Below are positions 7,235 through 55,000 of a stretch of 64,000 nt of DNA, one piece after another. The translations under genes were made by a program, and so were the position numbers. This DNA is from Argopecten irradians (Eukaryota > Mollusca > Bivalvia > Pectinida > Pectinidae). Each line of letters starts with the position of its first letter. Position 1 is the first letter of the stretch. The notes under the pieces are model-generated. The model was given only the letters and a program-made list of their open reading frames with translations, ran no database searches and was not told where the DNA came from. The stretch covers positions 20,567,655-20,631,654 of the forward strand of contig NC_091137.1 in NCBI RefSeq assembly GCF_041381155.1. The letters are read 5' to 3'.

Positions 7235-8342
7235 TTAGGTCATCTGATCGAAGGTCAGGATGACCTATTGTCATCATGTTTTGTCCGTCGTCGTACGCAG
7301 TCCGCCGTGCGTCATGCGTAAGACTATTTATACAAAAGCCTACTCCTCCTTCATCCTTAGATGGATTTCATCCATATTTGGTTTGAAACATCATTGGGGA
7401 AGGACAATCATATTTTATATAAATGAGCCTGGTCCGTCCCTTAGGGTCGGGGGGGGGGGGGGGGGGGCCAAAAGGGCAAATTTTCTTAATTTTAGCTTTA
7501 AAATCCTACTCCTCCTTTATCCTTGGGTTGATTTCATCCATATTTGGTGTAGAATATCACTGGGGAAGGACAATCAAATTTTATATAAATGAGCCTGGTC
7601 CGACCCCTAGGGGCCGAGGGGTGGGCCCCAACGGGCAAATTTTCTTAATTTTAGCTGGCCCACTTCCTGTTTTCAAGTTTCGGTCTCCGATCTCAATGAA
7701 AATTGGTCTATAGGAGTTTTAATTGATGCCGAACAACATGCAAACATTTTCATAAAGATTTTGTTATTGCAAGATGGCTGCTGGCCCACTTCCTGTTTTA
7801 AGGTTTCAGTCTCCGATCTCAATGAAAATTGGTCTATAAGGGTTTTAATTGATGCCGAACAATGCAAACATTTCCGTAAAGATTTTTGTATTCCAAGATG
7901 GCCGCTGGCCCACTTCCTGTGTTCGGGTTCAGTCTCCGATCTCAATGAAAATTGGTCTATAGGGGTTTTAATTGATTCAGAAGGGGGAACTTTAGGTGAG
8001 GACAATCATATTTTATAAAGGACCGAGCTAAGACCCATGGGGATAGTACAGCGGAGGTCCAAAATGGGAGCTTTGCTGAAATTTGGCTTTAAAATCTGAC
8101 TCTTATATTAATCCTTGAATGGGTTACAACCATATATGGATGAAGGGCTACCAAGTTTGTTCAACAAATGACATTTACCTATTTCAGAAACTTACATATT
8201 CAACTAAGGAGTCAGAAACTTACATATTCAACTAAGGAGTTCCTTGTATTGTTTATATTAATTGTTAACCACTACTTTATACTGTGACTTTGTTGTTTTG
8301 TGCCATGAGTCAGATGACCGTTAAGGTCCATGGGCCTCTTGT
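7235..8342 (-). mobile_element. H-IV hairpin-ended element
   Basis: On the minus strand it starts ACAAGAGGCCCATGGACC and soon after has GGTCATCTGA. It ends in a hairpin (7237-7266) whose last arm TCAGATGACC is the exact complement of that box, then CTAA. The interior has two unit types: about 170 bp with a GGGGTCGGACC box, and about 115 bp with CTTCCTGTTTTAAGG. The ORFs here on both strands are repeat translations. A homopolymeric G run lies at about 7449-7467. Confidence 0.8.
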
Positions 8343-10263
8343 TTTGTGTAAACTTCAAGCGGCGTAACATAAAAACTCTTGCATTGGTCACAATATTCTA
8401 AGCATCTGATCGACATAGGAAACTTCCGGAACAATACAATGCAAATCAGGTTTATAAAGTCAATAAAAGAAAGTGATGAAACTGGTAACATTTAGTACCG
8501 GCCACATATTTAATTTATTTCACATCATCCTAGGTCCTAGGTGTAAGTTAAACTGTCGTTTATTATAATTACTTAACCCTGTGACCACAGACCACATTTG
8601 CTGCAGTTCTAATAAATATTTCTGAAATTACACAGCCTTGCGTAGGAGAAACAGAATAAAAAAAAAAAACATTATGAAATATCAGTCTGAGCTCTAGATC
8701 TAATGTACTCCAGAAAGGTGTTCAAGCATGACACAGGTAAGTCACCACGTGCACAGAGACTGGACAGTGTTCTAGCGGACGAATATTTTAAACAGAGAAA
8801 CAAGCCTATCGTATCAATATGATAATAAACACACTTCTATGTAACAAAGAACACAATTGACAAAGTTCTAAGTAATTTCACATTAAAAAATCTGATTAAG
8901 TAAAGGAAAGTAATTATTACAATACACTAAGGGCGTTAACCATCTCCTTGCAATAGTCCCAAGGACAATGAACGAAAGTGCTACATACACCTGTTGCTGA
9001 GAATTAATTCATACTGGAAATAAGTTAAGAAGTAGTTAGCGAGCACTTAATGTCTAACTGACATATTTCTAGTTTATGTTTTTATTTCTGAAAAAATGCA
9101 AATTAGTGGAGAATGAACGACCAGGCAGAATGAATCAGCTTGGGTATGGGATATAATCTAATGAATAATTTTCCCTTTAGAAACCAGTGCAGAAGAAGGA
9201 AAATAAGCGTTCCTATAAAATTCCTTCCCAACCAGGAAGTAAACCCAGGTTTATCGGCATGATAAACGACTGAATGAAAGAAGCATGCTCAGTCAGTGGA
9301 GTGACAGAATGTAGTCAGAATATAGTCTCTCCAATCACTTTCACAGTGATAAATTGTGTATTCTATATGTGAGGAATTGAATGGAGTAGTTTTATTCATA
9401 CCCAGTATGAATTGTTGGGAAATAGTGTGCAATTTATCAGTCAGAACTATAAATCCTAACACATCATATTTAGGGCACATGGACAATTCTATATAATACA
9501 AAGATAATGATTTTGCTGGAGAAGAATTCAGTTATGTTTTACAACCTGTTGACAACAGTAACAAGCTAAAACATAGAGACTAGAGACTCAATTTACATGC
9601 TCATGAATATTTAAGTGACTTTTATCATACAGCTAATTTGATTGGCACTATTTCCTACCTAAATGTCTTTGCTGTGGAACTATAATCACACACTGACTTG
9701 GATTACTGACTATTGATCACTTCTCGGTACCACCTACACACCCGGTATTGTGCCAAGTAGTGATGTGATAGAGAGACGGCTGATTCCTAGCGTTTATTTG
9801 CAGAACTGAAAAAAGAACTATGAGATGAATTAAATCATAGTGTCTGTTGTTGATATTCTGTGATTGGACATACTTTTCTAGCACTTCATTTTAACGGGAA
9901 TATTTTGAACATTTTAGAAATTAGTTTATACTCAGCCTGTTAAACTGATCTCGTCATGAGGCACAGTGTCTCAGTATATCAACTACTGTACAGGACTCTT
10001 AGATAGGTATAGATTTGTGGTTATCTCTGTACCAGGATATCCTGACTGTGTAGAAGTGGGTCAGTAAAATTCAGTGACAGATTCCCCAAGGAATACGCAA
10101 GCAAATTTAAAGCATACATAGAGGAAGTGTTCGTAACAATGCATTACCTAGTAACCCCAAAAAAACGATTTTGTCATAGAAAAGGTAAGTATTAATTTAA
10201 AAATCAACATCAACTTCATGTTATGATTAGTTGTTCTAAAATTTACTTTTGTATTTCTTTCAG
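8343..10263. other. No coding gene seen; GT11 upstream region
   Basis: This AT-rich stretch has no supported coding ORF. A possible non-coding leader exon of the GT11 gene ends at 10184 (AAAAG|GTAAGT), with a short 79-bp intron to the acceptor at 10263. Confidence 0.4.
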
Positions 10264-15439: not shown

Positions 15440-16269
15440 TAACACAACTGACGCTTATCTTAGTAATATAACTGACACAGCATTAAATTTACGACAACCT
15501 TCATAAAATCCAATTAGATGTACCTCACATGATAATGTGAAACCACCCGTCCTTTGTATAAATTGAATTTATTTGGTTAATTCGGAGAACATTAATGTTC
15601 CTAAAAAAAGCCAGTGAAGTGACTCCAAATGTTTTTTTTTCCAGAAAATAACTGTTCATAAATGATTTTTATGTTTTTCAGTAAGTAAAATTTTACTGAA
15701 ATGTGATGTTTCATTTACTGTAAACCAAATTTCTTTCACCGTCACAAGATTTTGTGATTTCTATTTCAAAGCATTTTTGCGGAGATCAAGTTTCCTGGAT
15801 TTATAATTAAATTAATTAAATTGTACAAGAATTGTGCAAGGGATTGATTTCGCTGAGATAATTTACGAAAATAAATCAAACATGAAAGAAAGTTGGTTTA
15901 CAGTATTGAAAGAATTGATTGTTAGGCCAGAGACTGGTAGTAAGCCTACATGTAACTCCACCGTCCATAGAGAGTTTTAAGTGCTGGTATATGTAAATTA
16001 TGTCTTTTTCATTTTTCGTGTGTCATAATAATAATATTGGGTTTTCTTTCAAATAAGCAATTTGATCTTAGTGATATGAGATTGAATAAGCACTATTTTG
16101 ACAGTTCAATTTATCCTTGTAAATTTCTACAATCATTTCCTTAAAATCATCAAGTTATCCCTAATGTTGAGCTATGATTAAATCATAATGTAAAATAACC
16201 AAATTGCTAGAGTCATTCGAATCTTACACATTATTGATTGCATGCATATATGTTGTAGCATTAGTTTAT
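15440..16269. other. GT11 3' flank, no other gene seen
   Basis: AT-rich sequence without a supported ORF. It contains possible polyadenylation hexamers (ATTAAA near 15483, AATAAA near 15870). Confidence 0.4.
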
Positions 16270-17611
16270 TAGCTCACCTGGCCCGAAGTGCCGGTGAGCT
16301 AATGTCGTGGCGCGGTGTCCGTCGTCCGTCTGTCCGTCCGTCCGTCCGTCAACATTTCCTTTAAATCGCTACTAGTCATAGAGTTCTGCATGGATTGTAA
16401 CCAAATTTGGCCACAAACATCCTTGGGGGAGGAGGAACAGAATTTGTATAAATTTTGGCTCTGACCCCTGGGGGCAGGAGGGGCGGGGCCCAATAGGGAA
16501 AATAGAGGTAAATCCTTTAAATCGCTACTTGTCCTAGAGTTCTGCATGGATTGTAACCAAATTTGGCTACAAACATCCTTGGGGGAAGGAGAACATAACT
16601 TGTATAAATTTTGGCTCACGTCCCCCAGGGGCAGGAGGGGGCGGGGCCCAATAGGGGAAATAGAGGTAAATCCTTTAAATCGCTACTAGTCATAGTGTTC
16701 TACATGAATTGTAACACATAATTTGGCTACTAAAACCTTGGGGGATTTGGAAACAGAATTTTATAAGTTTGGGCTCAAGTCCATGGGGGGAGGGGCGATA
16801 CAGGCCACCAATGGGGTATTCTTTCACCTTAGAGGTAATAATCTTTTAAATTATTCTAGTCATAGAGTTCTACTAACCCCAAATATTGTGCCACCGAATA
16901 CATCCTTTGGGGGAGGGCTAGGAACAAGAACTTGTAAATATTTTTTTTTGGCTATAAATCTTGCAGGGGCAGGTATCGAGGCTCGGGGGATCCCAGTAGG
17001 GGAAATAGAGTTACCTATAACCCTATATTTCGACTACTTGTCTACCCCGTCTTGCTTCATGTGATTGTAGAACCATTTATGATATTGGCCACAAACATAC
17101 CTCTCAGGGAGGTGCTGAAGTAGGATTTTGTTAGAATTTTGGCTCTGACCCCCGGGGGCAGGAGGGTCGGGGCCCAATAGGGGAAATAGAGGTAAATCCT
17201 TTAAATCGCTACTTGTCCTAGAGTTCTGCATGGATTGTAACCAAAATTAGCCGCAAACATCCCTTGGGGGAAGGGGAACAGAACTTGTATAAATTTTGGC
17301 TCTGATCCTCCATGGTGCAGGAGGGACGGGGGCCCAATAGGGGAAATAGAGGTAAAATCTTTAAATCGCTACTAGTCATAGAGTTCTGAATAGAATGTAA
17401 CCAAATTTGGCTGCAAACATCCTTGGGGGAAGGGGAACATAATAGAACTTTTGGCTCTGACTCCGGGGGGCAGAAGGGGGCGGGCCCAATAGGGGAAATA
17501 GAGGTCAATCCTATAAATTGCTACTTGTCCTAGAGTTCTACATGGAATTGTAACAAAATTTGGCCACAAAACATCCTTGGGGGAAGGGGAACATAACCTT
17601 GTATAAATTTT
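16270..17611 (-). mobile_element. H-I element, 5'-truncated
   Basis: The 3' hairpin AGCTCACCTG...CCGGTGAGCT (16271-16300) is followed inward by a CCGTCCGTCCGTC tract. About eight units of roughly 165 bp come next (TCCTTTAAATCGCTACT, CATCCTTGGGGGA and CCCCTGGGGGCAGG boxes). It runs straight into H-II sequence at about 17611 and lacks its 5' end. ORFs here are repeat translations. Confidence 0.8.
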
Positions 17612-19002
17612 GGCATGAAATTTCATGGCCCTGGGGTCTCCATTTCCACCTGGGGGGGGGTCAAATATACTATAGTTTTATATAGAAAAAACACATTTAT
17701 GAGCATTATTTGCTTAATTTTTAGCTCACTTGGCCCGATGGGCTGGTGAGCTTATGTCATGGTGCGGCGTCCATCCGTCCGTCTGTACGTCGTCCGTATA
17801 ACATTTCCGTTAATTCACATTTCCGTTCAATGGATGTAACCAAATTTAGCCACAAACATCCTTGGATGAAGAGGAACATAAACTTGTATAAATTTTGGCC
17901 CTGACCCCACCGGGGGCAAGAGGGGGTGGGCCCAATAGGGAAAGAGGTATCTCCTATAAATCGCTACCCCAGTACTTGTCATAGAGTTCTGCATGGATTG
18001 TAAACAAATTTGGCCACAAACGTCCTTGGGGGAAGGGGAACAGAACTTGTATAAATTTTGGCTCTAACCCCCTGGGGGCAGGAGGGGTGGGGCCCGATAA
18101 GGGAATTAGAGGTAAATATTCAAATTCTTTCAGAAAAGAAATAATGAACCTGTATTCAGAACATAACTTGGCATAAAAAACCAAGTGAGCGATACAGGCC
18201 CTTTGGGCCTCTTGTCATAGTAAATGAGTCAATCTTGGTTAGAATTATCAGCCGAAGAAAGTAGTTTAACATCAATCCATATACCCATAGGCATAGGTCT
18301 TGGCTGACCCCCAGGATCATGAGGGGCGGGGCCAAAAAGTGTCAAAATGGCTAAAATTTAAAAAATATTCTCCACTTGGAGATGTGGTAGAATCAAATAC
18401 TCTTCATAGATTGGAAGGTCTTAAAGCCCTCTATAAATTTTCTGAATTTCATGACCATGGGGTCTGAGATTTTTCCCCGGGGAGGGGGTCATATTTACTT
18501 TAGTTTATATAGGAATAACATTGATGAGTATCATTTGCTCAATTTTCGTAAGAAATGAGTTACTTGGTTAGAATTATAAGCCTGAGATAGTATTTTAACA
18601 TCATATCCAGATAGATCCATGACTGACTCTTAGGTGTCAGATGGGCGGGGCCAAAAGGGGTCAAAATGGCTAAAATTTGAGATATGATGGAACCAAAATA
18701 CTCTTCATATATTGAATGGTCTCAAGGCCCTCTACAATATTTGTGGCCCTGGTGTCTCAGATTTTTACTTCAGTTTATATATATAGTGAAAACACATTTA
18801 TGAGTATTATTTGCTCAGTTTTTATAGGAAATGTAACAGATGCAATGGAATAAAAACCTCTTCATAGATTAAAAGGTCAAATTGATATAATCATTGACAG
18901 ACTTCAAGAGCCTGATGGGCCCATATTTATGTAGTGTTTATATGTCTTTGATTCATTCTTTATCTGAACTCAGGTGACTGTTAAAGTCCACAGGTCTCTT
19001 GT
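17612..19002 (-). mobile_element. H-II element, interrupted by H-I
   Basis: The minus-strand 5' end ACAAGAGACCTGTGGAC then CAGTCACCTGAGTTC lies at about 18965-19002. Units of about 330 bp follow, with GAGTATTTGATTC-type and GGGGTC boxes. The array is split at 17722-18215 by an H-I insertion. The 3' hairpin is missing. Confidence 0.75.
17722..18215 (-). mobile_element. Complete H-I element nested in H-II
   Basis: On the minus strand it runs from ACAAGAGGCCCAAAGGGCCT and CGCTCACTTG to the terminal hairpin ending CAAGTGAGCTA. The joined flanks (AATTTT|CATAGTAAATGAG) match the paralogous H-II unit at about 18540 (AATTTTCGTAAGAAATGAG), so the insertion is exact and without duplication. It has two units. 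Confidence 0.85.
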
Positions 19003-22068: not shown

Positions 22069-22137
22069 GACTGTCTTATGTGACTTTCCAAGAGACCATT
22101 ACAAAAAAGTCACATAAGACAGGGAGACACTTAAGAC
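22069..22137. repeat. Short inverted repeat
   Basis: GACTGTCTTATGTGACTT and AAGTCACATAAGACAG pair around a loop of about 20 bases, with further complementary bases outside (AAGACAGTCC). It may be a small foldback element. Confidence 0.6.
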
Positions 22138-22194
22138 AGTCCAATCACAACATCACTGTTAGAAAATCTGTCTTTTAATGTTTTTAAATACATT

Positions 22195-22783: not shown

Positions 22784-22824
22784 AAAAACTGAAAAATGAT
22801 TTTTTTTTTTTTTTTCAATAAAAA

Positions 22825-24400
22825 ACAAGAGGCCCAGAGGGCCTGTATCGCTCACCTGTTTTTTTGTTAGTAATTATCACAAGACTCTGACAATTAGAAA
22901 AATAAGCAAAATTGACTCCCAAAGTTTAATTTTGAATCACAACCATACAATGATGCTATTGATACCATACAAATATGCTATCCAATACATGTACATAGGT
23001 TCAGAGACAAAGTAATTTATATGAAAGTAGTAGCCTAATTGACCTTTTTGACCTCGCATCTATTGCCGTCTAAGGCCCGGGGGTCAGCCCTATCATTTGT
23101 ACAATTTCAAATCCCAACCCTATAAGGATGCTACCATTGCATTATAAGTGCTCTTCCATTCTTAGTTGCAGAGAAGAAGTCGTTTATATGGAAATAGCTA
23201 AATTAACCCCTTTTGACCCCACCCTTCAGGCCCCGGGGGGTCAGCCCATCATTTGCAAAATTTTGAATCCCACCCTATAAGGATGTAACCATTGCATTAT
23301 GAGCGTAATCCCATGTTAAGTTGCAGAGAAAAAGTCATTTATATGGAAATTGACACTTTTGACCCCGCCCCTCAGGCCCCCGGGGGGTCAGCCCCATCAT
23401 TTGCACAATTTTGAATCCCCACCCTATAAGGATGCTTCCATTGCATTATGGGTGCTATACCATGCTTAGTTGCAGAGAAGAAGTCATTTATATGGAAATA
23501 GCCAAATTGACCCCTTTTGACCCCCCCCCTCAGGCCCCCGGGGGACCTATCATTTGCACAATTTTGAATCCCCACACTATAAAGGATGCTTACCATTGTA
23601 TTATGGGTGCTATACATGCTTAGTTTCAGAGAAAAAGTCGTTTATATGGAAATAGCCAAATTGGCCCCTTTTGACCCCGCCCCTCAGGCCCCCGGGGTCA
23701 GCCATTTGGACCACCAGCCCCATCATTTTGCACAATTTTGTCTTTTAGGAAAAGCAAATGACCCCCCTCACCCGGGGGTCCCACCAAATTTGAATATAAG
23801 GATGCTACCATTGCTTTATGGGTGCTACCATGCTTGTTTCAGAGAAGAAGTCGTTATATGGGCCAAATTGCCCTCAGGCCCCTCGGGGTCAGCCCCATCA
23901 TTTGTACAATTTTGAATCCCACCCTATAACGATACTACCATTGCATTATGAGTGCTATCTCTTGCTTAGTTTCAGAGAAGAAGTCGTTTATATGGAAATA
24001 GCCAAATTGACCCCATTTGACCCCGCCCCTCAGGCCCCGGGGGGTCAGCCCCATCATTTGTACAATTTTGAATCCCCACCCTATAAGGATGCTACCATTG
24101 CATTATGGGTGCTATCCCATGCTTGGTTTCAGAGAAGAAGTTGTTTATATGGAAATAGCCAAATTGACCCCTTTTGGCCCCGCCCCTCAGGCCCCCGGGG
24201 GGTCAGCCCCATCATTTGTACAATTTTCAGTTAGTAGCCCATAAGGATGCTACCAGTCAAATTTTGTTGAAATCCCGACCAGTGGTTATGGAGAAGAAGT
24301 CGATTGTTGACGGACGGACCGGACCCTGGCGCCAGACGCCGGACGCCGGACGCTGCGGTATCCCATAAGCTCACCTCGGTCCTTCGGACCAGGTGAGCTA
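22825..24400 (+). mobile_element. Full-length H-I element
   Basis: It runs from ACAAGAGGCCCAGAGGGCCT and CGCTCACCTG to the hairpin AGCTCACCT...AGGTGAGCT (24368-24399). About seven units of 160-170 bp carry ATCCCCACCCTATAAGGATG, GAGAAGAAGTCGTTTATATG and CCCCGCCCCTCAGGCCCC boxes. A GACGGACGG / GACGCCGGACGC tract precedes the hairpin. The first ~500 bp are nearly identical to the copy at 28812. It lies just 3' of INTS5. Confidence 0.88.
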
Positions 24401-24922
24401 ATAAATACAAGCAGACGTACATTGGTGTTTGGCTTTACTTATTAAACTGTGTTAAAGAGAAGAAAATTCTGGAAGGGTTGTAATTTTGTGTTCAACATTC
24501 TAATTTTTTTGCACTTAATGAATACCATGTTTTTATATTTGTGGTGCCAATGTTACCATTAATGATCAATGAACATTCCTTGGTATACAGTAGTATATAA
24601 CCAGCCATGCCAGTGTAACTTCGAGATTGTTATATACAGAGATAAGAATGTAAACACCAAAACTTCCAAGTTTATGGACATTAATATTTTGTTTTTGTAT
24701 ATTAGAGTTATCTCCCTTGTTGGTAGGTATATATTGTGATGTCATCAATATACAAGCAAAACTTGCATTATATAATTATTTTATTTTAAAAAGTATGATG
24801 TTACGCTTGCAATCACAACGCTGCTGTCAATATCAACCTGCAGGGGCAGATAACTCTGATAAGCAAATGCAGAATGTCATTCATTAATTAAGTAAAACAA
24901 GCTCTTGATGTACATTTAACAA

Positions 24923-24928
24923 TTTATT
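24923..24928 (-). terminator. Candidate INTS5 polyadenylation signal
   Basis: AATAAA on the minus strand, about 53 bp after the INTS5 stop codon, in the right place for a short 3' UTR. Confidence 0.6.
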
Positions 24929-28000: not shown

Positions 28001-31000
28001 AAACTCACCTGTGATAAACACGTCCCCGATGACCTTGACCTCAGTCCACTACCTATGACCCCAGCATGGAACACACTGGACTGTGAGCGAGGTAAGGTAA
28101 GTGTTGTACCATGTTTACTGTTCTCCACCAGAAGTGAGACCTTTGGGTTCTGATCCCTATGCTCATCGCCAGACGATGGCTTAGCACCAAACAATAAACT
28201 TGTGTCCTACAATATAACAAGAATCTCATTCAGGTTGATTATTCTCCCATATTAAATTCTTAGTTCAAAGAATTGGCAATCATTTTACTTTCTAATGATT
28301 AAAAGTAATCTTACCCTCTTGTTAACTAGAACTGTCGCTGACTTATACTCCCCTTAATAGAGGACATTGCAGACACCTTTTATATATAACTTACATAACT
28401 CCCCTTCACATCAGGGTTCTGTGTATCAAATTTTATCAAAATCTGTCCAGTAGTTTAGGAGGAGTTTGCCGGACAAAGTTGTGTCTACAGAGACAGATGG
28501 ACAGAGTGATTCCAGTACCCACCCCCTTTACTTCTTTAGGTATAATGAATTAACCTCCTCCTATTTGTTATGAGGAACATACATTTAAATTACCACAGTA
28601 AAGGGTGAAGTCTAGTTAGCTCAATCCTGACTTTGAGAAATAACCTAAGAAAATATATCTTTATTGCCAAAAGATAATGTTGAGAAATGTTAGCACTGTA
28701 CTAAAACAGCTGAATGACTTATATGTGCAAAACTTATAAGATTATATTATCCTATCGGTAATATGGTAACCTAAACCTGTTGGTAAGAATATAATTTCAT
28801 CCTATTATAAGACAAGAGGCTCAGAGGGCCTGTATCGCTCACCTGGTTTTTTGTTAGTAATTATCACAAGACTCTGACAATTAGAAAAATAAGCAAAATT
28901 GACTCCCAAAGTTTAATTTTGAATCACAACCATACAATGATGCTATTGATACCATACAAATATGCTATCCAATACATAGGTTCAGAGACAAAGTAATTTA
29001 TATGAAAGTAGTAGCCTAATTGACCTTTTTGACCTCGCATCTATTGCCGTCTAAGGCCCCGGGGGTCAGCCCTATCATTTGTACAATTTCAAATCCCAAC
29101 CCTATAAGGATGCTACCATTGCATTATAAGTGCTCTTCCATTCTTAGTTGCAGAGAAGAAGTCGTTTATATGGAAATAGCTAAATTAACCCCTTTTGACC
29201 CCACCCTTCAGGCCCCCGGGGGGTCAGCCCCATCATTTGCAAAATTTTGAATCCAAACCCTATAAGGATGTAACCATTGCATTATGAGCGTAATCCCATG
29301 TTAAGTTGCAGAGAAAAAGTCATTTATATGGAAATTGACCACTTTTGACCCCGCCCCTCAGGCCCCCGGGGGTCAGCCCCGGGGTCAGCCCTATCATTTG
29401 CACAATTTTGAATCCCCACCCTATAAGGATGCTACCATTGCATTATGGGTGCTATACCATGCTTAGTTGCAGAGAAGAAGTCATTTATATGGAAATAGCC
29501 AAATTGACCCCTTTTGACCCCGCCCCTCAGGCCCCCGGGGGGGTCAGCCCTATCATTTGCACAATTTTGAATCCCCACCCTATAAGGATGCTACCATTGC
29601 ATTATGGGTGCTATACCATGCTTAGTTTCAGAGAAGAAGTCGTTTATATGGAAATAGCCAAATTGGCCCCTTTTGCCCCGCCCCTCAGCCCCCGGGGGGT
29701 CAGCCCTATCATTTGCACAATTTTGAATCCCCACCCTATAAGGATGCTACCATTGCATTATGGGTGCTATACCATGCTTAGTTTCAGAGAAGAAGTTGTT
29801 TATATGGAAATAGCCAAATTGGCCCCTTTTGACCCCGCCCCTCAGGCCCCCCGGGAGGTCAGCCCCATCATTTGTACAATTTTGAATCCCCACCCTATAA
29901 GGATGCTACCATTGCATTATGGGTGCTATCCCATGCTTGGTTTCAGAGAAGAAGTCGTTATATGGAAATAGCCAAATTACCCCTTTTGACCCCCCCTCAG
30001 GCCCCCCGGGGGTCACCATCAAATATTTTGAATCCCCACCCTAACCAAATTATGGTGACCTGCTTAGTTTCAGAGAGAAGTCGATTTTGTGGAAATAGCC
30101 AAATTGACCCCATTTGACCCCGCCCCTCAGGCCCCCGGGGGGTCAGCCCCATCATTTGTACAATTTTGAATCCCCACCCTATAAGGATGCTACCATTGCA
30201 TTATGGGTGCTATCCCATGCTTGGTTTCAGAGAAGAAGTCGTTTATATGGAAATAGCCAAATTGACCCCTTTTGGCCCCGCCCCTCAGGCCCCTGGGGGA
30301 TCAGCCCCATCATTTGTACAATTTTCAGTTAGTAGCCCATAAGGATGCTACCAGTCAAATTTTGTTGAAATCCGACCAGTGGTTATGGAGAAGAAGTCGA
30401 TTGTTGACGGACGCCGGACGGATGCCGGACGCCGGACGCCGGACGCTGCGGTATCCCATAAGCTCACCTCGGTCCTTCGAACCAGGTGAGCTAATAAATT
30501 ACCCTGTTAGCAATTAACTAAAATTCCCCCCTACCCTTGAGATCATGGCAACCAAATATTACTCCATTTTGTTTCCACGCTAACTGTTATTAAAGCATGA
30601 TGTGTCAAATAATTAATATTCATATATGTTACAATAATTGACAAAGTGAGAAAAAAACAGATACAAACCTATGCCTTATTGACCATTTTAGCAAACTTGG
30701 GTATAGTGACCAGCTGGTTACCGAGGCAACGAAAATGAGTTTACCTTCTGTAGGTAATCTTACCGTGTTAGTAATTCCCTCCAGAAGGAAGCGTAGTAGG
30801 ATACACTGGATAAAGCTATGATGGCATAGCTGAAGAAGACACTGTTTACACACCTGTACTGACCGCTGTGCCTTGTGGGCATCTGTATACAACATTTTAT
30901 ATCAGAAACCTTAAGCAGCAAAGTGATATAATCATGAATTATAATGTATTCAGCTAAAACACACATGAATATTAAGTTATTGTCACTTTTGTTCCATCGG

Positions 31001-37000: not shown

Positions 37001-40000
37001 CAACCTACCTGTGTCCCTTACTGTTAAGTAATATGAAGGACCTACCTGTGTCCCTGACTGTTGAGTAACATGTCTGTGATATTGATAGCCTGTGGAGTAA
37101 GAGAAGCTAACAAAGGGACGTCACTCTTGCCATCTCTCTGGCGATGAAACACCGCTCTCTGTAGTTCAGTCACTAAGCGATTCTGGAAAAAATAACATAA
37201 GAGTGACCACTGAGAGTTGCTATTGACTTACATCTATATAAAGAACAAATCAAAGAATTGTTTTATAAATTGATCACCACCAATATTGTCATATGAAACA
37301 CAGTAAAACATGTATTGGGGCCACTTTTCTATACACTTAAAAGGACCACTTTTCTAAATGGCCAGTTTCATTTTGATAAAGGCAAATTTGAGGACAGTTT
37401 TTTGAAGGAGTCAAAGTCATGTGAGAAATTATTATATTTTGGCAAATTCATTCTGGTGACCTTAAGTTGGGGTTACGGTACTGTTCTTTATCACATCACG
37501 GACCAGTTCTTGTATCTGGTTCATCCCTTTGGACAGTGCTTAATACTGGGATTAAGTACAATATCAGGTCTCAGAAAACTCTTACTTATAAAAGAAGTTT
37601 ATTTTTGAACCCCATCACCTTAAAGAAAGGTCAAGGTCAATCATTTCAACAATCTTGTATTCCTTCTTTAGCCTAAAATACTGTGTAAACACTTACCAAC
37701 AGTACAGCACATGTCTGTCTCACTTCTGCATTGGGCATCTCTGTTCCTGGCTTCTCTGGGGACAAAATAGCATAAATGGTTAGGTTTAAAGAATCAATTA
37801 ATATGAACAATCTAATAGGCGGTTATCCTGCTAACAAGATTTGTGGAAATAAGAAAGCAAGAGGCCCATGGGCCTTAGCGGTCACCTGAGTTCGGATACA
37901 GAATGAAACAAAGACACAAAAACACTATATATTGGCCCATCAGGCCCTTGAAACCAGTCAGTGATTTTATAACTGACTTTTCAATCTATGAAGAGTATTT
38001 GGTTCCATCAAATCTGTGAATTCAGAAGATTTTTTTTTTCTTATTTTAGTCATTTTGACCCCTTTTGGCCCCGCCCATCTACCCCTGGAGGTTGACCAGG
38101 ACCAATATGGATATGATGATGCTATCACAGGGTAATAATTCTAATCAAGTTTGACCTATTGAAAATTAAGAAAATAATGCTCATAAATGTGTTTTCCCTA
38201 TATAAACTTAAGTAAACTTGATCCCCCTCCCCAGGGGGGAACCTTAGACCCCAGGGTCATATAATTCAAAATATTTGTAAAGGACCTCAAGACCTTTCAA
38301 TCTATGAAGAGTATTTGATTCTGCCATTTCTGGAATATCATAAGCAGATTTTTGAAGTTTTAGCCTATTTACCCCTTTTGGCCCCACCTCTCAGGCCCCT
38401 GGAGGTCAGTCGTGGAAAAATTGTTAATAGGATTAAATGGCCTTCTCATACTGATAATTCTGACAACATTTGACTTATTTCCTATTACAAATGACCAAAT
38501 AATGCTCAAAAATGTCTTTTCCCTGTATAAACTATAGTAAACTTTATCCCCTCCCCAGGGGGGAACGTGAGACCCCAGGGTCATATAATTCACAATTTTT
38601 GTAAAGGACCTCAAGTCCTTTTAATATATGAAGAGTATTTGATTCTACCATTTCTGGAATTTCAGAAGAAGATTTTTGAAGTTTTAGCCTATTCGACCCC
38701 CTTTTGGCCCCACCTCTCAGGCCCCTGGGGGTCAGTCGTGGAAAAATTGTTAATAGGATTCAATGGCCTTCTCATACTGATAATTCTGACAACATTTGAC
38801 TTATTTCCTATTACAAATGACCAAATAATGCTCAAAAATGTCTTTTCCCTATATAAACTATAGCAAACTTGACCCCCTCCCTAAGGGGGGAACGTGAGAC
38901 CCCAGGGTCATATAATTCACAATTTTTGTAAAGGACCTCAAGACCTTTTAATTTATGAAGAGTATTTGATTCTACCATTTCTGGAATTTCAGAAGAAGAT
39001 TTTTAGAAGTTTTAGCCTATTTGACCCCTTTTGGCCCCACCCCTCAGGCCCCTGGGGGTCAGTCGTTGAAAAATTGTTTAAAGGATTCAATGGCCTTCTC
39101 ATACTGATCATTCTGACAACATTTGACTCATTTCCTAGTACAAATGACCAAATAATGCTCACAAATGTATTTTCCCTGTATAAACTATAGTAAACTTGAC
39201 CCCTCCCTAGTGGGGGGGGGGGGGACATGAGACCCCAGGGTCATATAATTCACAATTTTTGTAAAGGACCTTAAGACCTTTCTATCTATGAAGTGTATTT
39301 GATTCCACCACATCTGTGAGTAGAGAAGAAGATTTTTGAAATTTTACTCAATTTTACCCCTTTTGGCCCCTCCCACAGCCCCCTGGGGGGTGGGGACCAT
39401 ATAATTCACAATTTTGATTGGCCTTATGCCTTAGACGGTTTGTGCAAAATTTCATTGAAATTGCTTCAACAGTTTTGGAGAAGAAGTCAAAAATGTAAAT
39501 TGTTTACGGATATACGACGGACGACGCACGATGCACGACGGACGATGACAGACAAAAGATGATTAGAATTGATTCTACCATTTCTGGAATTTCAGAAGAA
39601 GATTTTTGAAGTTTTAGCCTATTTGACCCCTTTTAGCCCCACCCCTCAGGCTCCTGGGTGGCTGGGACCATATAATTCACAATTTTGGTTGACCTTTGGC
39701 TATGGAAGGTTTCTGCAAAATTTCAACAAATTTGGTTCAGTAGTTTTGGAGAAGAAGTCGAAAAAGTAAATTGTTTATCGCCATACGACGGACGACGCAC
39801 GACTGACGACGGACGACGACGGACAAAAGGCGATTAGAATAGGTCACTTGAGACTTCGTCTCAGGTGACCTAAAAAAGAAGAAAAATAAGAATAAAAAAA
39901 AATAACAATAGGGATTTCCATCTGTAAATGGAAATCCCTAATAACCAAATTGACCCTTTTAGCCCGCCACTCCATCCCCCCTGGGGTCAGCCCCACAATT

Positions 40001-43000: not shown

Positions 43001-46000
43001 ATAGGGAACATACAAACTTATTCACTTCTCCATTGGAATGTATGAAATAATAGGGAGCATACAAACTTATTCACCTCCCCATTGGAGTAAAGTGTGAAAT
43101 TTTAGGGAGTATACAAACTTTTTCATCTCCCCAATTTGTCGTACTGTATATGAATTTAATGTATACAAATGGATTATTTTCTCCCACTGATAGTAGTGTT
43201 TGAGATATAGGGACTAGACTAGCTTATTTTATAAAGTAGGTCAATGATCATAGAGTAGGTCACATTTACCAATTTTTGATAGATAGAAGGGCAAATACAA
43301 AGTTAAAGTCCCCTCCTTTAACGTACCTCAGATAATAATTGACATGTTTTAATCACAATCTTACAGATACCATCCAACATCTACCTTTCATATTCATGGA
43401 GATTGGATCCCTTCCAATTAGCAAACTGGCTGCTGAGTTTGTTAAGTACATTAGGAGTCACTGAAAATACAATATAAAGTGTTTAATCTTAGTACTAAAT
43501 GTTCATGTCATAGTAGAGTTTCCTTATTATAATATCCATAGCTCATATTTTATAGTGTCAATATCATAATGCAAACTGTTCAGCATAAAAAGCATTGTAG
43601 GACAAGCCATTCATTTACAGAAGATATTGACTGTGTAAGTGTAGGTACAACTTCCTTATTGATAAGGTTATAAAATTGTATTTTCAGTTTGGTTCATTAT
43701 TCATTGGCACTAATTGGGTGTCACATGGTATTACTCAAACTCTAAATTGGTCAATGTCAGTGCAGCAATATGTTATACACGTATAATGGTGGGCTATGTC
43801 AAAATTACAGTACAGTAACAAAGGGAAGGTGTCACACCTAATGTGTTACTGTCAACCCATTTACTTGAGTAAAGTTTACATATAATGCTTCATCAATATG
43901 TTGTCAGAAATATACACTTACATCCTTGAATGAGGTCGGTGGTCAGGATTTGGAGAAGCATGGGTGACATGGAGGCCAGCTGCAGAAGGAACGGAACAGT
44001 TGTCACCTTCAATGTGTCGCTCTGTGTGTGTATACTGTCCTGTATCAATAAAATCAAGATGTCAGTAGGCTCCATGACTCGGTCAGAGGATCTGTATGAG
44101 CCAGAGTTTCTGAGGAGATTGTATCACATAAGCCACCCCATTCTTTATCACATCAGATCTAAATCAGGTAAACAAACTCCAGTATTATAGTGACATGTTC
44201 CAGCTTACCACAAGTTGGTTTGATATCCATGTTCTTTACATCTATATATATTTACAGTAAGTCTATAAATCCTCCTATAAATCAATCAATGCATCTAAAC
44301 TTGATTTAAACAAATCTCACTCTTAGTTATTGGAATTTAAGCTGACAACATCAGAAATTCAATGTATTTTTTATAGATTTCCTTGGGTGACATACCAGAA
44401 CCAATTGGACAAATTAACTTGAGAACTTTTCTTACATAGAAGTTTTCTACCCATCAATCAATTCTTCCAAAGTATTTTTTACCCAACAACTGAAATGGAT
44501 ACAAGTCAAGATATGATCTTATGCAGACCATCCTGCTATCAATCTAAAAGTAATAACAATAAGTAAATTGCCTACCTCAAACAGTTTCATGAGAGCCAGG
44601 CGTATTTCTTGGCTGTGTTTGGAAGCAAGGTGTCCCAGGATGCCAACAACAGACGCCATCTTTGGTATCCTTTCCTCCGACATCATCTCCAAGTCTGCTG
44701 TCTTTCCTCCATTTTGACAGAAATCTTTTAGACCACACATCAACACTCGAGTTATAATCGTATCAGGAAAACATGATCTGGCAACATAAAATCAGGAAAA
44801 CATGATCTGGAAACAAAAAATCAGGAAAACATGATCTGGAAACATAAAATCAGGAAAACATGATCTGGAAACATAAAATCAGGAAAACATGATCTGAAAA
44901 CATAAAATCAGGAAAACATGATCTGGAAACATAAAATCAGGAAAACATGATCTGAAAACATAAAATCAGGAAAACATGATTTGAAAACATAAAATCAGGA
45001 AAACATGATCTGGAAACATAAAATCAGGAAAACATGATCTGAAAACATACAAGAGATCCCAGAGGGATCTTGGCGCCCACCAAAGAATGATCTATATCTG
45101 ACAAAGGAAAGATGGATCTTTTCTCTACTTTTTAAACTTTTTTCAAACATACTACATATAAAATTTGAGACAGATCGCTTCAGTACCTTTTGAGAAATAG
45201 CAGTAACAAACTTCAACTATCAAAATCCAAGATGACTCCTTTGCGGCCATCTTGTTGATCAATTGGTCCCAAATCACAATATGCACAACTAGGGCCTAGG
45301 GGAACCTACATGTGAAATTTGAGAAAGATCCATTCAATACTTTCTGAGAAATAGCGATAACAAACTTTGAATATAAAAAACAAAGATGGCTGCCTGGCAG
45401 CAATTTTGTTGACCGATCCCAAATCAAATCACAACTAGGCCTAGGGAACCACATATAATTTGAGATCCCAACTAGAATACATAACAACTAATACAAACAG
45501 ATGACTCCTTCTCTGTCCAAAATGAAGCCTGATACTACATAAAAATTTGAGACAGATCATTCAAATATCTTTGAGAAATAGCGGTAACAAACTTCAACTA
45601 TCAAAATCCAAGATGACTCCTTGGAGGCCATCTTGTTGATCAATCGGTCACCCAAATCACAATATGCACAACTAGGGCCCGAGGGGAACCTACATGTGAA
45701 ATTTGAGAAAGATCCATTCAATACTTTCTGAGAAATAGCGATAACAAACTTTGAATCAAAAATCAAAGATGGCTGCCTGGCGGCCATCTTGTTTTTCCGA
45801 TCAGCCTCAAAATCTGTATGGCACAACTAGGGACCAAGGGTAACCTCCATGTGAAGTTTGAACAAAATCCCTTCAGTAGTTCTCAAGAAATATCGATAAC
45901 AAACTTTCAACTGCCAAAATCAAAGATGGCTGCCTGGCGGCCATCTTGTTTTTCCGATCAGCCTCAAAAACCATATGGCACAACTAGGGACCAAGGGTAA

Positions 46001-49000
46001 CCTCCATGTGAAGTTTAACAAAATCCCTTCAGTAGTTCTCAAGAAATATTAACAAATTCAACTGCCAAAATCAAAGATGGCTGCCTGGCGGCCATCTTGT
46101 TTTTCCGATCAGCCTCAAAATCTGTATGGCACCTAGGACCAAGGGTAACCTCCATGTGAAGTTTGAACAAAATCCCTTCAGTAGTTCTAAATCGATAACA
46201 AACTTCAACTGCCAAAATCAAAGATGGCTGCCTGGCGGCCATCTTGTTTTTCCTATCAGCCTCAAAATCTGTATGGCACAAATAGGGACCAAGGGTAACC
46301 TCCATGTGAAGTTTGAACAAAATCCCTTCAGTAGTTCTCAAGAAATATCGATAACAAACTTCAACTGCCAAAATCAAAGATGGCTGCCTGGCTGCCATCT
46401 TGTTTTTCCAATCAGCCTCAAAATCTGTATGGCACAAATATGGACCAAGGGGTCCCTCCATGTGAAGTTTGAACAAAATCCCTGCAGCAATTTTTAAGAA
46501 ATAGTGATAACAAGCATTGTTTACGGACGGACGACGGACGACAGACGGCGGACAATGGACGACGGACCACGGACGCAGGGCGATTTTAATAGCCCACCAT
46601 CTGATGATGGTGGGCTAAAAATCAGGAAAACATGATCTGGAAACATAAAATCAGGAAAACATGATCTGGAAACATAAAATCAGGAAAACATGATCTGGAA
46701 ACATAAAATCAGGAAAACATGATCTGAAAACATAAAATCAGGAAAACATGATCTGGAAACATAAAATCAGGAAAACATGATCTGAAAACATAAAATCAGG
46801 AAAACATGATCTGGAAACATAAAATCAGGAAAACATGATCTGAAAACATAAAATCAGGAAAACATGATGATCTGAAAACATAAAATCAGGAAAACATGAT
46901 CTGGAAACATAAAATCAGGAAAACATGATCTGAAAACATAAAATCAGGAAACCATGATCTGGAAACATAAAATCAATGGATATCATAACAAGAACAAAAC
47001 TGTTCTCTGAATTGACAAAACAAGAAATGCAGGTAATTATCTGTCTCACTCCTAGATTACTACTTTTGACATAATTTCATTTTTATTACAGACGGCTTGT
47101 TTACCAGACTTTTATAGTGGAAAATAAAATGATATGTTGTGGAAAATAAAATGATACTGGGGTATTTGATAATGGTTTAACTTTTCCACTGATGCAAGGT
47201 CCAACAAAGTCAAATATTCTGGATGATCAAAACATGAATGACTTGAGGTCTTAATAACGTTCTATACTGGGTAACTCTATTTGAAGTCATGTGAATATCA
47301 GAATGATAGATTTTGACAAATGGGTCTGCAAAGTCATAGTGCTTCGTAGCCTTTGAACTCTACACTAAATGATAATGTCCTGTAACTGTATTCCAAGTGT
47401 ATTTCATGTCAGACTGATATGTTTTGAAAAACAAATCTAATCCAAGGTTAAATCCTACATTGCATGTACATGAAGATATGCTGATGTCGACCTTTACTAC
47501 ATTTAGTTTATGTCGGACAGGTAGTCTTTGAAAATTAAATCTTAACTAAACTTTAAAGTCTGTCTGTGATTCAGAATCCTTAAGTTTCACAGCCGTTGAA
47601 TTCAGTTTCTCTTTCCAACACAGGTGTGGGTTTTGAACATTTGGATTTATTCCACATAATGTGGACAACTCAATGTGCAGTGGTTGTACTTACCCTATGT
47701 GGGCCACCACCCAGTCAAAGTGTGGGCTGTATTTAACCGAAGCCTCCAGGAGAGCATCGACACAAGAATCTGGCGCACCTTGAATCCTGTAACATGAACA
47801 ATCGTTAAGCTATTAAACATTTACCTACATAAACTTCTTCCAGTAAATTTGTCATTCATGAGTATTTGTATTGTATTTGTCCCCTATGATCTTGAATGAT
47901 GGTCAAGAAATTATTTGTAAACAATAATATATGTAGCTAACCCAATAGGATATTTGTTTGGGATGTATGAATAATGACCGTTATCTTCGTGAGTCCTGTT
48001 GTAACTAACCATACACTACAGTGATGGTGATGTGTACACGATGGTACATGTAGAGGCGCTGTGACACCTACATTGCTGCGAAACATTCCGTAGCCACCTC
48101 CATGAGAGACTTGGTGGGAGTACAGGTCATCCACAGCTGTAGGAGCTCATTGAGAGAGTTGGCATGAGGAACCATTCGATGAGAGGCATACTTCTGGCTG
48201 ATCTGACCAAGTAGCTCCAAGGACCACTGCACACAGGCAAACAAAAAGACAGAATTAAACATTCACTTATTTCATCATCATATCACACCCACAGAGCTGT
48301 TTAAAAGTGCTTCACAAACTAATGTTTATGTTGTAAGGTTTTTCACAGTGACACTTTATGTCAGTGCTGGGTATCAAGCTATAACAACAGTATAGCAGAA
48401 TCACACAGCTATCACATAGCTGAATGTCCTTACACTTGACCACTGTTCTCAACTCATCACCCCCGCAGACACAAATGAAGTCTTCTAATTCTATTGTTGG
48501 AAGAGTGCATTATGAAATTTTAGGTGTGAATTATTTAATTTACCACGGAGAATGAACTTTCCTATGTAATTTGATATGCAAGATGATACATGTGATAATT
48601 ACAAAGACTTACGCTAGAGATGATGGGTGCCCAGGCCTGGGGACCTGTCCTTATGAAGTTATACAGAACACCACAGGCGTCTTGAATCACACCATCCAAA
48701 CTGCCATGGCTTTCATCTTCAAGTAAAAAGTAACAATTAACCAAAGATAAAATTTGTTACTCAAAGCTATATGTGATGAAATTTTTAAGCATTAAACTAT
48801 CTTTCTATGGCATCTATTGTCTATATAGATGCTAGAGCTTTAAGTTTGCAGACAATCTTCATAATGCGCTTATAATGCGCACAAGCACATTATGAGATGA
48901 TTGTCTGCAAAGCTCTGGTATCTATATATACCATAGATGCCATAGGAAGATAGTTCAATACTTATATTTACATTATAAAATCATTTTGGGGTCTCTGCAT

Positions 49001-52000
49001 TAACATTGTTTAAGCTAGACCAGTAAAACCGTTTATCAACAACTATTTAATCCACGAGATGGAACAGCCATTTTGACGGTGATCAGTTGACGACACCACG
49101 TCAACATTAGTGACGTCATAATAGTCACGTTTTGGGTGGTTTTAATTCATATAGAAGAAGTGACAAGTAAATGTAAAAATGTGCCAATATCAATCAATTT
49201 GGCACAATATATTACATATATACAGAGGACTGAGGTAAATACTTTCAGTGACCATGTGTCCCAAGATCACCAAAAAATTGAAAGAATTACCAAAACTGTC
49301 AAGACTAGTGGTGGTAGTCCCCTATACCACTAACCATCAATAGTTCCTAATTCTATCTGCTTGGATCAATACAGACACATTTTTGACCTAAGATGTATAA
49401 ACCCTTATACATATTCAAATATTTTTCTTTCATACCTTTTAAGGATACTTCTCCAAAAGAAAAAAATAAATGCCCACTGAATAAAATAAGTAAGTATCAA
49501 CCCCTGTTGTACTTTTACTCTTATTTTGATGAAATTTGTCTCAATTCTAAGTATTATCAAACAAAGTTTTATTGCATTACCGACAGGGTTTTCCGAGTTG
49601 TTTAACAAAAGCCTCATCAAATGGTCATTGACTGCTTCATCAAAGACACTGCATAGATGTTCTAATACAGCAAATCTGGCGGTGGGTAGGGTTTGTAGGA
49701 GATACAGCGCTGACTTGGTGTAACTCTCTCTTCCCATAGACTGCTCCTTGCTGGCACCTCTAAGAAATTTCCTCACTTCATTGAGAATTGTCTGCCAGAG
49801 TATATAAAAACAGTTTTTTAGTTGTCACACATACATAATTAAGACACATACCATGTTTGCCGTATTTAGAGCCCAGGGCACTTAAAAAATTGTAAGAAAG
49901 GGGCACTTATTAGTGAACCAAAATGTAAGAAGTGGACGAAAAAAGGTCAGCCATATTTTAAATTTTTCTGTACTCATGACACATTAATCTGTTACAGTAA
50001 ACATGCATATATGCATTTTAACCTTTGAGTTCACTGAAAGTAAACCATAATTAAACCGTAAGATTGCAAACTCAACCATATCTCTCCTCTCTATACTGTA
50101 GATTATTATGTTGTGATTCACATGTAAAAGACTGACAACGTGCTGATGTTAGAGGCATCACATGCTGTAACACATTGTTAAAACCAACTCTATACAACTT
50201 CAACTCCTTATCCAGAAAAGGGGAGGGGCTCTAATTGCGGTGAATACGGTAAGAGCAAATTATGAACAACAAATATCAAAATTATTGTAAGCTGGGTTGG
50301 AACTTATAAATCATAATAAAATCATATGATTTTCACAACAAATAACTAATAATTAATATAACATCCAGAAAAATGAAAAGTGACAATGCCTTCAAACAAT
50401 GTCAATGTCCATATTCAACTTTGACAATTAAGTATCATATCTTAATCTATACTTAGTGTATCTAGGTGAGATCTGAGTGTTTACATTAAAACCTATATGT
50501 ATTTTGATTCATTTTTTCAATCAAAATGCTGACTGCTGCGTATAAACTTAAGCCTTCTATATTACATGATGACCTTTAAGGTTCTTTGCAAAAATGTGTT
50601 TTGAAAATTCAAAGATTGAAGAAAAGGATAAAGAATTAGAAAAGCTTTGAATCAAAAAGAAGTGGTATATCTTACAATTAGAAAAATTAGCAAAATTGAC
50701 TCCAAAATTTGTTTAATTTTGAGTCATCATTTGTACATTTTGAATCCCCATCCTATAAGGATGCTACCGTTGCATTATGAGTGCTATCCCATGCTGAATT
50801 TCAGAGAAGTCGTTTATATGGAACAAGAGATCCCAGAGGGATCTTGGCGCCCACCTAAGAACGATCTTTGTCTGACAAAGGAAAGAGGGATCTTTTCTCT
50901 GCTTTTCAAGCTTCTACTAAATATTACTACACATGAAATTTGAGAAAGATCCTTTGACTACTTTCTGAGATATATAACAGTAACAAACTTCAATTATCAA
51001 AGTCCAAGATGGCTATCTACCTGTTGGCCATCTTATTCACCAATCGGTCCTAAAATGCAATTTGCACAACTAGAACCCTAGAAGAACCTGCACATACAAT
51101 TTGAGACAGATCCCTTCAGTACATTCTTAGACATAGCGGAAAAAAACTTCAATTGTCAAAATCCAAGATGGCGTCCTGTCGGCCATCTTGTTCACCGATC
51201 AGTACCAAAATGCAATATACATAACCAGGGACCTAGGGGAACCTGCACATGAAATTTGAGACAGATCCCTTCAGTACTTTCTAAGAAATATTGGTAACAA
51301 GCTTCAACTATCAAAGTCCAAGATGGCTACCTGTTGGCCATCTTATTCACCAATCGGTCCTAAAATGCAATTTGCACAACTAGAACCCTAGAAGAACCTG
51401 CACATACAATTTGAGACAGATCCCTTCAGTACATTCTTAGACATAGCGGAAAAAAACTTCAATTGTCAAAATCCAAGATGGCGTCCTGTCGGCCATCTTG
51501 TTCACCGATCAGTACCAAAATGCAATATGCATAACCAGGGACCTAGGGGAACCTGCACATGAAATTTGAGACAGATCCCTTCAGTACTTTCTAAGAAATA
51601 GTGGTAACAAGCTTCAACTATCAAAGTCCAAGATGGCTACCTGTTGGCCATCTTATTCACCGATCGGTCCTAAAATGCAATATGCACAACTTGGCCCCTA
51701 GGGGAACCTGCACATGCAATTTGAGACAGATCCCTTCAGTGCTTTCTGAGAAATAGCTGTAACAAACTTTAACTATCAAAATCCAAGATGGCTGCCTGGC
51801 GGCCATTTTGTTGACCGATTGGTCCCAAAATACAATATGCACAACTAGGGCCCTATAGAGGAACCTACATATGAAATTTGAGAAACATCCCTTCAGTACT
51901 TTCTGAGAAATAGCGGTAACAAGAATTGTTAACGGACGGACGGACCACGGACAAAAAGCGATTTGAATAGCCCACCATCTGTTGATGGTTGGCTAAAAAG

Positions 52001-55000
52001 CTAAATTGACCCCTTTTGACCCCGCCCCCTCAGGCCCCAAGGGGTTCAGCCCCATCATTTGTACAATTTTGAATCCCCACCCTATAAGGATGCTACCATT
52101 GTATTATGAGTGCTATCCCATGCTTAGTTTCAGAGAAGAAGTCGTTTACATGGAAATAGCTAAATTGAACACTTTTGACCCGCCCTTCAGGCCCCCGGGG
52201 GGTCAGTCCCATCATTTGTACAATTTTGAATCCCCACCCATGGTTATGGAGATGAAGTCGATTGTTTACGGATGGACAGACGACGGACGACAAACAACGG
52301 ACGCCGGACCCCACGGTATGGCATAAGCTCACCTTGGTTCTTCGAATTCGGACCAGGTGAGCTAAAAAGTGATATACTTTCTGTGACACACATATATGCG
52401 CATGCACCGAGACTAACAGAGCATCGGATATATTGGCAATTTCACATTACAATTTTGATACTTTTTTTTATCAAAGGCAGGGTTGGATCCCGGTACTTGA
52501 TAGCAATATGATATTGTTACTCTCTTTAAAAATTCGTCATTTATTTAAGGCGAGTCCAGAAGACTAATTTCCAAATTTTGATGAGTACCAGTACAAAGAA
52601 ATTACCGTAGTAATGAGTCTAGTACTCATCTAGACGAGTCCCATAAATCACTGAAATTACTGGTATATACACATTTTAAAATGTATCAATACTCTAGATC
52701 TTGACTAAATGACAAGTGTGTGTAAGAACATGATCTTCTAAAGTCTTGCAATTCTGTTTTATAATGAAAACTACATTGTTTGCACAAAAACTTGTGTATT
52801 TTCTTATGATATATCATAAATTACAATGTTAAAACAAATGAAGTCTTCTTTTTCTATGTATGACAACCAGTGTATTTCTTCAAAAGTATCAATATCAATA
52901 AAATCCGGCATCATGTCATTGGTATCGGTATGAAATTGTACCGTTTCGTTCTTAATGATATTCAACCCTAATCAAAAGCCACCCTGCATCTAGACCTTGA
53001 TTAACCTAAGCTTAGTCTTATTTCTGCATTAAACAATATTTAGGATTTTTTTTTATTCAAAATTCTAGTAAATTACTTTTAAAGGCCCACTGCATTTCCC
53101 CAAGGATTTATAGGTGATAATAAGGATTTGTCACTCTTTCTTTACACTACTAATAAACACCAAGGAGAGAAGATTTAGAAAAAATGTTGCATTTTTCACT
53201 AAAAAAATATTGTTTAATGTAATGACTGCCTGCTTCAGAAAGTAAGACGGTAACCCTCGCACCCGCAATCTACATGTATCAAAGGTTGTACTGGCGGATA
53301 TCAAAGGAAAATCAGTCAAAACAATGTATTTGTCCAAAACCCTGAGTGACTTATCCTCACCATCTACATCCTTGCTTTACCAAATGGCTTTTAAATTTAA
53401 AATGTAATGATATGGTCACAAAGATCGGGCGATATCCGGGAATAGGAGAAATCGGGAGTACATCGTTGGTTTTAACCATTTTCCCGACATCGGACTGCAC
53501 CGGTCAAAATATTTGTCACATCATTTACATAGGAAGAGGCCTAGAGGGCCGGTATCGCTCACCTGGTTTGTAATGCCAAATATTATATATATGCTGAATA
53601 CAGGTTAATTGTTTCTTTTCTAGGGGGAATTAAAGTTAAATATTTAAATTCCTATCAGGCCCCACCCCTCCTACCCCCTGGTGGGGTCAAAGCCAAAATT
53701 TATACAAACTCTGTTCTCCTTCCCCCAAATATGTTTCTGGCCGAATTTGGTTAGAATCCATGCTGAACTCTATGACTAGTAGCAATTTAAAGGATTTACC
53801 TTTATTTCCCCGATTTGGCAACACCCCTCCTGCCCTCGGGGGTCAGAGCCAAAATTTATACAAACTCTGTTCTCCTTTCCCCTGGGATGTTTCTGGCCAA
53901 ATTTGGTTAGAATCCATGTAGAACTCAATGACCAGTAGCAATTTGGAGGATTTATTTCTATTTCATTTCTTGGGCCCCGCCTCTCCTGCCCCTGGGGGTC
54001 AGAGCTGAAATCTATACAAACCCTGTTTCCCTTCCCCCAAGAATGTTTTTGGCCAAATTTAGTTACAATCCATGCAGAACTCTATGACAAGTAGCGATTT
54101 AAACGATTGACCTCTATTTCCCCCTATTGGGCCACGCCCCTCCTGTGTCCGGGGGTTCAGAGCCTAAATTTATACAATCTTTCTTCTCCTTTCCCCTAGG
54201 ATGCTTCTGGCAAAATTTGATAACAATCCATGCAGAACTTTATGACTAGTAGCTATATAGCGATTTAAAGGATTTACTTCGAATTCTATTTCCTTTATTG
54301 GGCCACGCCCATCCTACCCCTGGGGGGTCAGAGCCAAAATTTATACAAACGCTGTTCCTCTTCCCCCAAGGATGTGTTTGGCCAAATTTGGTTACATAAC
54401 AGAACTCTATGACTAGTAGCGATTTAAAGGATTTACCCCTATTTCCCCTATTGTCCCCCCCCACCTCCTGCCCTGGAGGATCAGAGCCAAAATTTATGCA
54501 AACACTATTCCCCTTTGGGCCAGGTGAGCTTAAAATGAGGCTGTGTGGTAATTGTACAGCGTCTGTTCCCAAAGAGAATGTTTTGGGAGCCGGTGAGGCA
54601 GTGCACATCGACCGAAACATGTAATGTTAACCGGCCGATTATCATACATGTCCAGGCTATAACGGGCCTATTCACCCGACATTTTGTACAGATATCTTAT
54701 GGATAATGAACGATAGTTGTGCCAGGCCTGGCCAATTGTCGGTTGTGTGATTGCCACTCGATTCCCGACCGTAATAAGGTGTGGCCTTAAGAAACTATCA
54801 ATGTTGGACTAATGGTGGAGACTATTGGTAGAGACTATGTCTCCACCTCTGGGATCGCATCTACTTTTTGTCCCAAAATTTCTGTGCACTCATGTGTACA
54901 TGCTCGACAGAATGTAGTTCTGGGTATTTCTAAGTTAAAAACAATTTTCAGGCGTGATATGTCAAAATACAAAGCAGGTAAGAAATGGTTAATGATGTGC

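Follow-up and report, generated by a model that had tools for sequence, protein, structure and literature searches.

Identity and layout of the repeat families

Four repeat families (H-I to H-IV) in a 64,000-nucleotide stretch of the Argopecten irradians genome (contig NC_091137.1, positions 20,567,655 to 20,631,654; hereafter the window) are very probably non-autonomous Helentrons (HINEs) that carry satellite arrays, an assignment made from their ends and layout and given a probability of roughly 0.92. In the literature cited below, the bivalve pearl elements are assigned to the same HINE group.

Read on the Helentron strand, the elements run in the order T-rich flank and TAG, 5′ subterminal inverted repeat (subTIR), inverted partner of this subTIR, GTCC/GTCG microsatellite, tandem array, 3′ subTIR, palindrome, and CTCTTG(T). 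By our own reading, the subTIRs are 7–11 bases long and the inverted partner of the 5′ subTIR is partial. The array unit is 126 bp in the H-IV copy, approximately 155–160 bp in H-I and H-III, and 327 bp in H-II. An inverted repeat adjoins the 5′ subTIR in the window hairpins and the copy with its end at 54531 lacks it, a GTCY-type microsatellite is followed by a tandem array, though some copies are without them, and a palindrome follows the 3′ subTIR in the window elements. This anatomy agrees feature by feature with that described in PMC7492417, PMC4067079 and PMC2374699, which argues for HINE identity.

An initial annotation of the window had described elements that start with ACAAGAG and a short palindrome, continue with a family-specific box, and end in a hairpin. 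All of these motifs are present in the sequence, however the orientation given to the elements was reversed, the correct reading being on the other strand. On that reading, the ‘terminal hairpin’ corresponds to the 5′ subTIR together with its inverted repeat and the ‘5′ box’ to the 3′ subTIR, and the ACAAGAG palindrome forms the 3′ stem-loop shortly before the element end. The box fits the last hairpin arm better than the first arm does because box and last arm are the subTIR pair and the first arm is the weaker inverted repeat. The hint in that annotation at pearl or Helentron-type elements was right. The layout and the family-wise matching of the ends are already published, and the window repeats are this known layout seen from the opposite strand. 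The elements, in coordinates of the window, are as follows.

7236..8342, + strand: H-IV element; 5′ subTIR and inverted repeat hairpin 7236–7267, GTCC-type microsatellite, 126-bp array 7654–7976, 3′ subTIR TCAGATGACC 8310–8319, palindrome, CTCTTGT up to 8342
16268..18215, + strand: H-I composite; 5′ hairpin 16268–16303, ~160-bp array 16357–17614, second 5′ hairpin from 17722 (CTCACTTG), 3′ subTIR CAAGTGAG 18182–18189, palindrome, end 18215
18969..19002, + strand: H-II, 3′ end alone; CTCAGGTGACT, palindrome, CTCTTGT
22825..24402, − strand: H-I element; 5′ hairpin 24365–24402, ~155–157-bp arrays, 3′ subTIR 22851–22858, palindrome, end 22825
28812..30495, − strand: H-I element; 5′ hairpin 30458–30495, ~159-bp arrays, 3′ subTIR 28838–28845, end 28812
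37857..39872, − strand: H-II element; 5′ hairpin 39840–39872, GTCG microsatellite, 327-bp array 38172–39389, 3′ subTIR 37880–37890, palindrome
44762..45049, no strand: host 29-bp tandem array, one flank of the empty site
45049..46617, − strand: H-III element inside the 29-bp tandem array; 5′ hairpin 46590–46617, 156-bp array 45574–46513, 3′ subTIR 45075–45081, palindrome
46618..46975, no strand: host 29-bp tandem array, other flank of the empty site
50823..51995, − strand: H-III element with mismatched subTIRs; 5′ hairpin 51968–51995 (GCCAACC), 155-bp array, 3′ subTIR 50849–50855 (GGTGGGC)
52324..52365, − strand: H-I 5′ hairpin; array repeats come after it and lead straight into the H-III element, no 3′ end of H-I being visible in the interval
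53535..54531, − strand: H-I element; 5′ subTIR 54521–54528, inverted repeat missing, 156-bp array, 3′ subTIR 53558–53565, palindrome
6094..6645, + strand: degenerate H-III element, outside the range of the initial annotation; mismatched ends, 5′ hairpin GTCCACC..GGTGGAC, 3′ subTIR GATGGGC

Head-to-tail composites are present at 16268–18215, 37857–40465, and 50823–52365. In these, an H-I 5′ hairpin and array run straight into a second element (H-I, H-II or H-III), and no 3′ end of the first H-I is visible at the junction. They resemble the 3′-truncated tandem copies mentioned in PMC7492417. In locus L052 (minus strand; 47–2155 of the reversed locus), a complete H-III is nested inside an H-I, just behind the H-I 3′ subTIR.

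Insertion site

The H-III copy at 45049–46617 interrupts a 29-bp tandem array, the adjoining units of which supply the empty site. The empty host sequence is AACATA|AAATCAGG, which is T|T on the Helentron strand, although the insertion point cannot be placed to the base within the run. This copy therefore shows the insertion at TT, with no duplication of the target, that is typical of HINEs.

A coding Helentron with H-II-type ends

The initial annotation had proposed a search for a Rep/helicase copy with the same ends, and such an element was found. A coding Helentron of 15.7 kb (C1:16377930-16393660) has H-II-type ends and an H-II-like array. PF14214 has 104 matches genome-wide, and the match at C1:16387016 has an H-II/H-IV start signature approximately 6 kb away. 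The open frame, of 1482 codons, contains Helitron_like_N and PIF1, both above the Pfam cut-off, and a C-terminal Exo_endo_phos match. The Rep, PIF1-type helicase and C-terminal endonuclease that mark a coding Helentron are thus all represented, the endonuclease weakly. The open frame is preceded by frames matching DUF6570 and PF04843, the latter of which we take to be the OTU-like protease reported in Helentrons. On the strand of the 1482-codon frame, the hairpin lies at the 5′ end and the palindrome at the 3′ end, which fixes the orientation of the elements independently.

At the 5′ boundary, three copies (C1, C644, and C2), all of which carry the H-II-like array, become homologous at the T-run before TAGGTCACCTGAGACGAAG, which is an H-II-type 5′ end. 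The 3′ end is TCAGGTGACCGTTAAGGCCCATGGGCCTCTTGT. The H-II element of the window (37857..39872) is approximately 79–82 % alike to the 5′ part of the coding Helentron. When the last 385 bases of the coding element were used as a query, with 40 of 1098 candidates scored, 58 matches were found, six of which cover at least 298 bases. A comparison by hand places each of these six 5.0–6.4 kb downstream of a same-strand PF14214 match. The remaining 52 matches cover 120 bases or less; three are next to three of the long matches and 49 are at other places. Separately, L072:8099-8429, a stretch of the coding Helentron, resembles the window H-III array, pieces of it being up to approximately 86–90 % alike.

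Canonical Helitrons, which have a 5′ TC, a 3′ CTRR, and insertion between A and T, are of the same superfamily and share the 3′ palindrome near the end and the Rep/helicase protein. However, the ends here are TAG.../...CTCTTG, with subTIRs and the inverted repeat present, the sole empty site is T|T, and the endonuclease match lies behind the helicase. It is therefore very improbable that these are canonical Helitrons.

Matching of the two ends within families

In each family, the box and the last hairpin arm are reverse complements, as had been claimed in the initial annotation. The subTIR match is exact in seven of the nine window elements with both ends visible (counted by eye). In a larger sample of 83 starts from the window and loci L001–L070 (L071–L074 were left out), the far end was resolved for 34 and unresolved for 49, and the families of the two ends agree in 32 of the 34 resolved pairs (24 H-I, six H-III, and two H-II). 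The two discordant pairs, from the window starts 34519 and ~18989, span other elements and were kept in the 34. The script resolved no H-IV pair and missed window pairs such as 28812–30495 and 7236–8342.

The boxes are just 7–11 bases, a length at which short motifs could resemble one another by chance. Against this, 100,000 label shuffles, which ignore relatedness, gave at most 29 concordant pairs, compared with the 32 observed. Likewise, when signatures were counted across the 846-Mb genome, there were 6467 exact H-I palindrome starts, 3498 H-III starts, and 3015 of the start shared by H-II and H-IV, compared with no matches genome-wide for the reversed-pattern controls. Chance similarity is, of the explanations considered, the one with least to commend it, being close to excluded. 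The H-IV box context was found 3619 times, again with no match to the reversed pattern, and many of these sites are also in the list of H-II/H-IV starts. At C1:5414617-5431419 of G000, six H-II/H-IV start signatures follow each other on one strand in steps of 3354–3357 bases, as if whole elements were in tandem. Besides any function, shared ancestry within each family contributes to the family-level agreement.

Test for covariation of the two ends in individual copies

The initial annotation had also reported a matched change at both ends of the copy at 17722. This copy (17722–18215), with CTCACTTG paired with CAAGTGAG, is real, but among the 38 boxes and 47 arms found in strict context no second pair of this kind lies in element order. 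Among the H-I boxes in exact context, 4960 are consensus and 94 have a sixth base other than that of CTCACCTG (T in 38, A in 50, and G in six). The corresponding arms number 47 (T) and 30 (A), compared with 3650 consensus arms, in strict context genome-wide. Coordinate pairing covered the T and A variants, leaving out the six G variants. Only one of the 38 T boxes is paired with any of the 47 arms and none of the 50 A boxes with any of the 30 arms, where approximately 0.24 and 0.21 pairs, respectively, are expected by chance. This expectation was built on the 51 of 100 listed consensus boxes with a consensus arm 0.2–6 kb downstream; as a background for the method, 16 of 100 listed consensus boxes have a consensus arm upstream. 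The pairing detects only arms preceded by GGGCC, and another H-I subtype has GGACC at this position.

Twenty copies with the CTCACTTG box were fetched, and in none of the 15 that were resolved is the CAAGTGAG arm present; the far end is CAGGTGAG in 14 and CAGGTAAG in one. Outside these 15, L064 has the far end CAGGTGAG with a degenerate first arm, the hairpin in L065 comes after two other starts, and L054, L062, and L070 have no far end. Boxes with mismatched hairpins, which the initial annotation had named as evidence that would count against it, are therefore found within H-I. They are also found in two H-III copies of the window absent from that annotation, 50823–51995 (GGTGGGC versus GCCAACC) and 6094–6645 (GATGGGC versus GTCCACC).

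If the ends co-evolved within individual copies, any change in one subTIR would select for, or be copied into, the other, and families would arise in small paired steps. The copy at 17722–18215 and the matching but different subTIR pairs of the families are in keeping with this, however the counts from the fetched copies and the coordinate pairing make it improbable. Copy-level covariation is rejected as a rule by three tests: the fetched copies, the genome-wide coordinate pairing, and the counter-examples in the window. Because fixed copies are not under selection, it is the single-copy rule that is refuted, and not coupling in active source elements. It is likely that the family-wise matching is inherited from the founder of each family, after which ordinary copies would mutate independently at both ends.

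Other repeats in the window

Inverted pairs at 4569–5695 and 59884–60551, approximately 55 kb apart and 88–96 % alike, are of a different repeat family. Unrelated tandem arrays at 36316–37072, 41401–43133, and 27239–27745 have units of 37, 53, and 31 bases, respectively.

Discussion

A number of points weigh against the assignment of these families as HINEs with a coding partner. The elements are known here from sequence alone, with no movement observed, and the T|T insertion is based on a single copy. In two H-III elements of the window, the subTIRs at the two ends do not match. In the coding Helentron, the Exo_endo_phos match (E 0.00016, 21.9 bits) is below the Pfam cut-off of 24.5, the subTIRs match over ten of 11 bases, and the 3′ end is equally close to H-IV (94 %, 36 bases) and H-II (91 %, 43 bases). 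A coding partner with shared ends was found for the H-II type only, in a search that did not take in H-I or H-III.

The resemblance to known systems is close. According to PMC7492417, the left part of oyster HINEs has a 5′ subTIR, a complementary inverted repeat, and a microsatellite, followed by tandem repeats and a right part with a 3′ subTIR and palindrome; these elements prefer TT, and changes in the subTIR and inverted repeat are element-specific. Cg_HINE of Crassostrea gigas has the layout seen here, with a GTCY/GTCC/GTCK microsatellite, a likeness in the layout as described. As reported in that 2020 study, Cg_HINE could not be tied to autonomous Helentrons, whereas here a coding element shares H-II-type ends and array. 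DINE-1 of Drosophila (PMC2374699; PMC4067079) is also described with a partial inverted repeat at the 5′ subTIR, a GTCY-rich microsatellite, central repeats, a 3′ stem-loop, TT insertion, and several subTIR types per species (three in one species in PMC2374699), however its subTIRs are 13 bp and its subterminal sequences are different. Bivalve pearl elements (CvA, CvE, and CvG), re-classed as non-autonomous Helentrons (PMC7492417; PMC5139131; PMC11136912), are modular with tandem core repeats, as here, and are again likened by description. Coding Helentrons as described in PMC4067079, among which OTU-like proteins are reported, have Rep, helicase, and endonuclease in one protein and ends common to their non-autonomous partners, as does the element here, which differs in its weak endonuclease match and in having the satellite-like array close to its 5′ end.

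By analogy with these named families, the HINEs of the window are most likely copied in trans by the Rep/PIF1-helicase/endonuclease proteins of coding Helentrons. Such a protein may copy or peel one strand from the 5′ end by rolling-circle copying, the 3′ palindrome would act as a stop mark or terminator, and the product would be inserted at TT. The two subTIRs may form a shared site, either binding the protein or pairing with each other. The suggestion in the initial annotation that the two ends work as a single unit is in line with PMC2374699, where subTIRs are regarded as functional, but recognition or pairing is conjectural. Its suggestion that new families arise by changing both ends together is correct only insofar as each family has its own subTIR pair, subTIR identity being what defines Helentron families in PMC4067079, but paired change at the level of copies did not hold.

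A doubtful extension, though better placed than copy-by-copy co-evolution, is that the subTIR pair of each family serves as a specificity code for a Helentron protein belonging to that family, with the 5′ subTIR alternating during transfer between pairing with the local inverted repeat and with the distant 3′ subTIR. New families might then begin when a source element changes both ends at once, for example where one end is a copy of the other, and a genome would come to have several lineages with satellites, each with its own coding partner.

Overall, the architecture is ordinary and well explained, its orientation had been reversed, the copy-level claim was not upheld, and a useful coding link is provided for one family. 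What is added is a genome-wide test, largely negative, for covariation of the ends in copies of one family (H-I), and a link between a coding Helentron and a HINE family in end type and satellite-like array, left unresolved in the account of the 2020 oyster study (PMC7492417). This modestly useful link appears to be new, in that no paper connecting a bivalve HINE to a coding partner was found in a literature search conducted mostly at the level of titles and the starts of abstracts, so that such a paper may nevertheless exist. Should coding partners be present for the other families too, the spread of these satellite arrays would become testable in each family.

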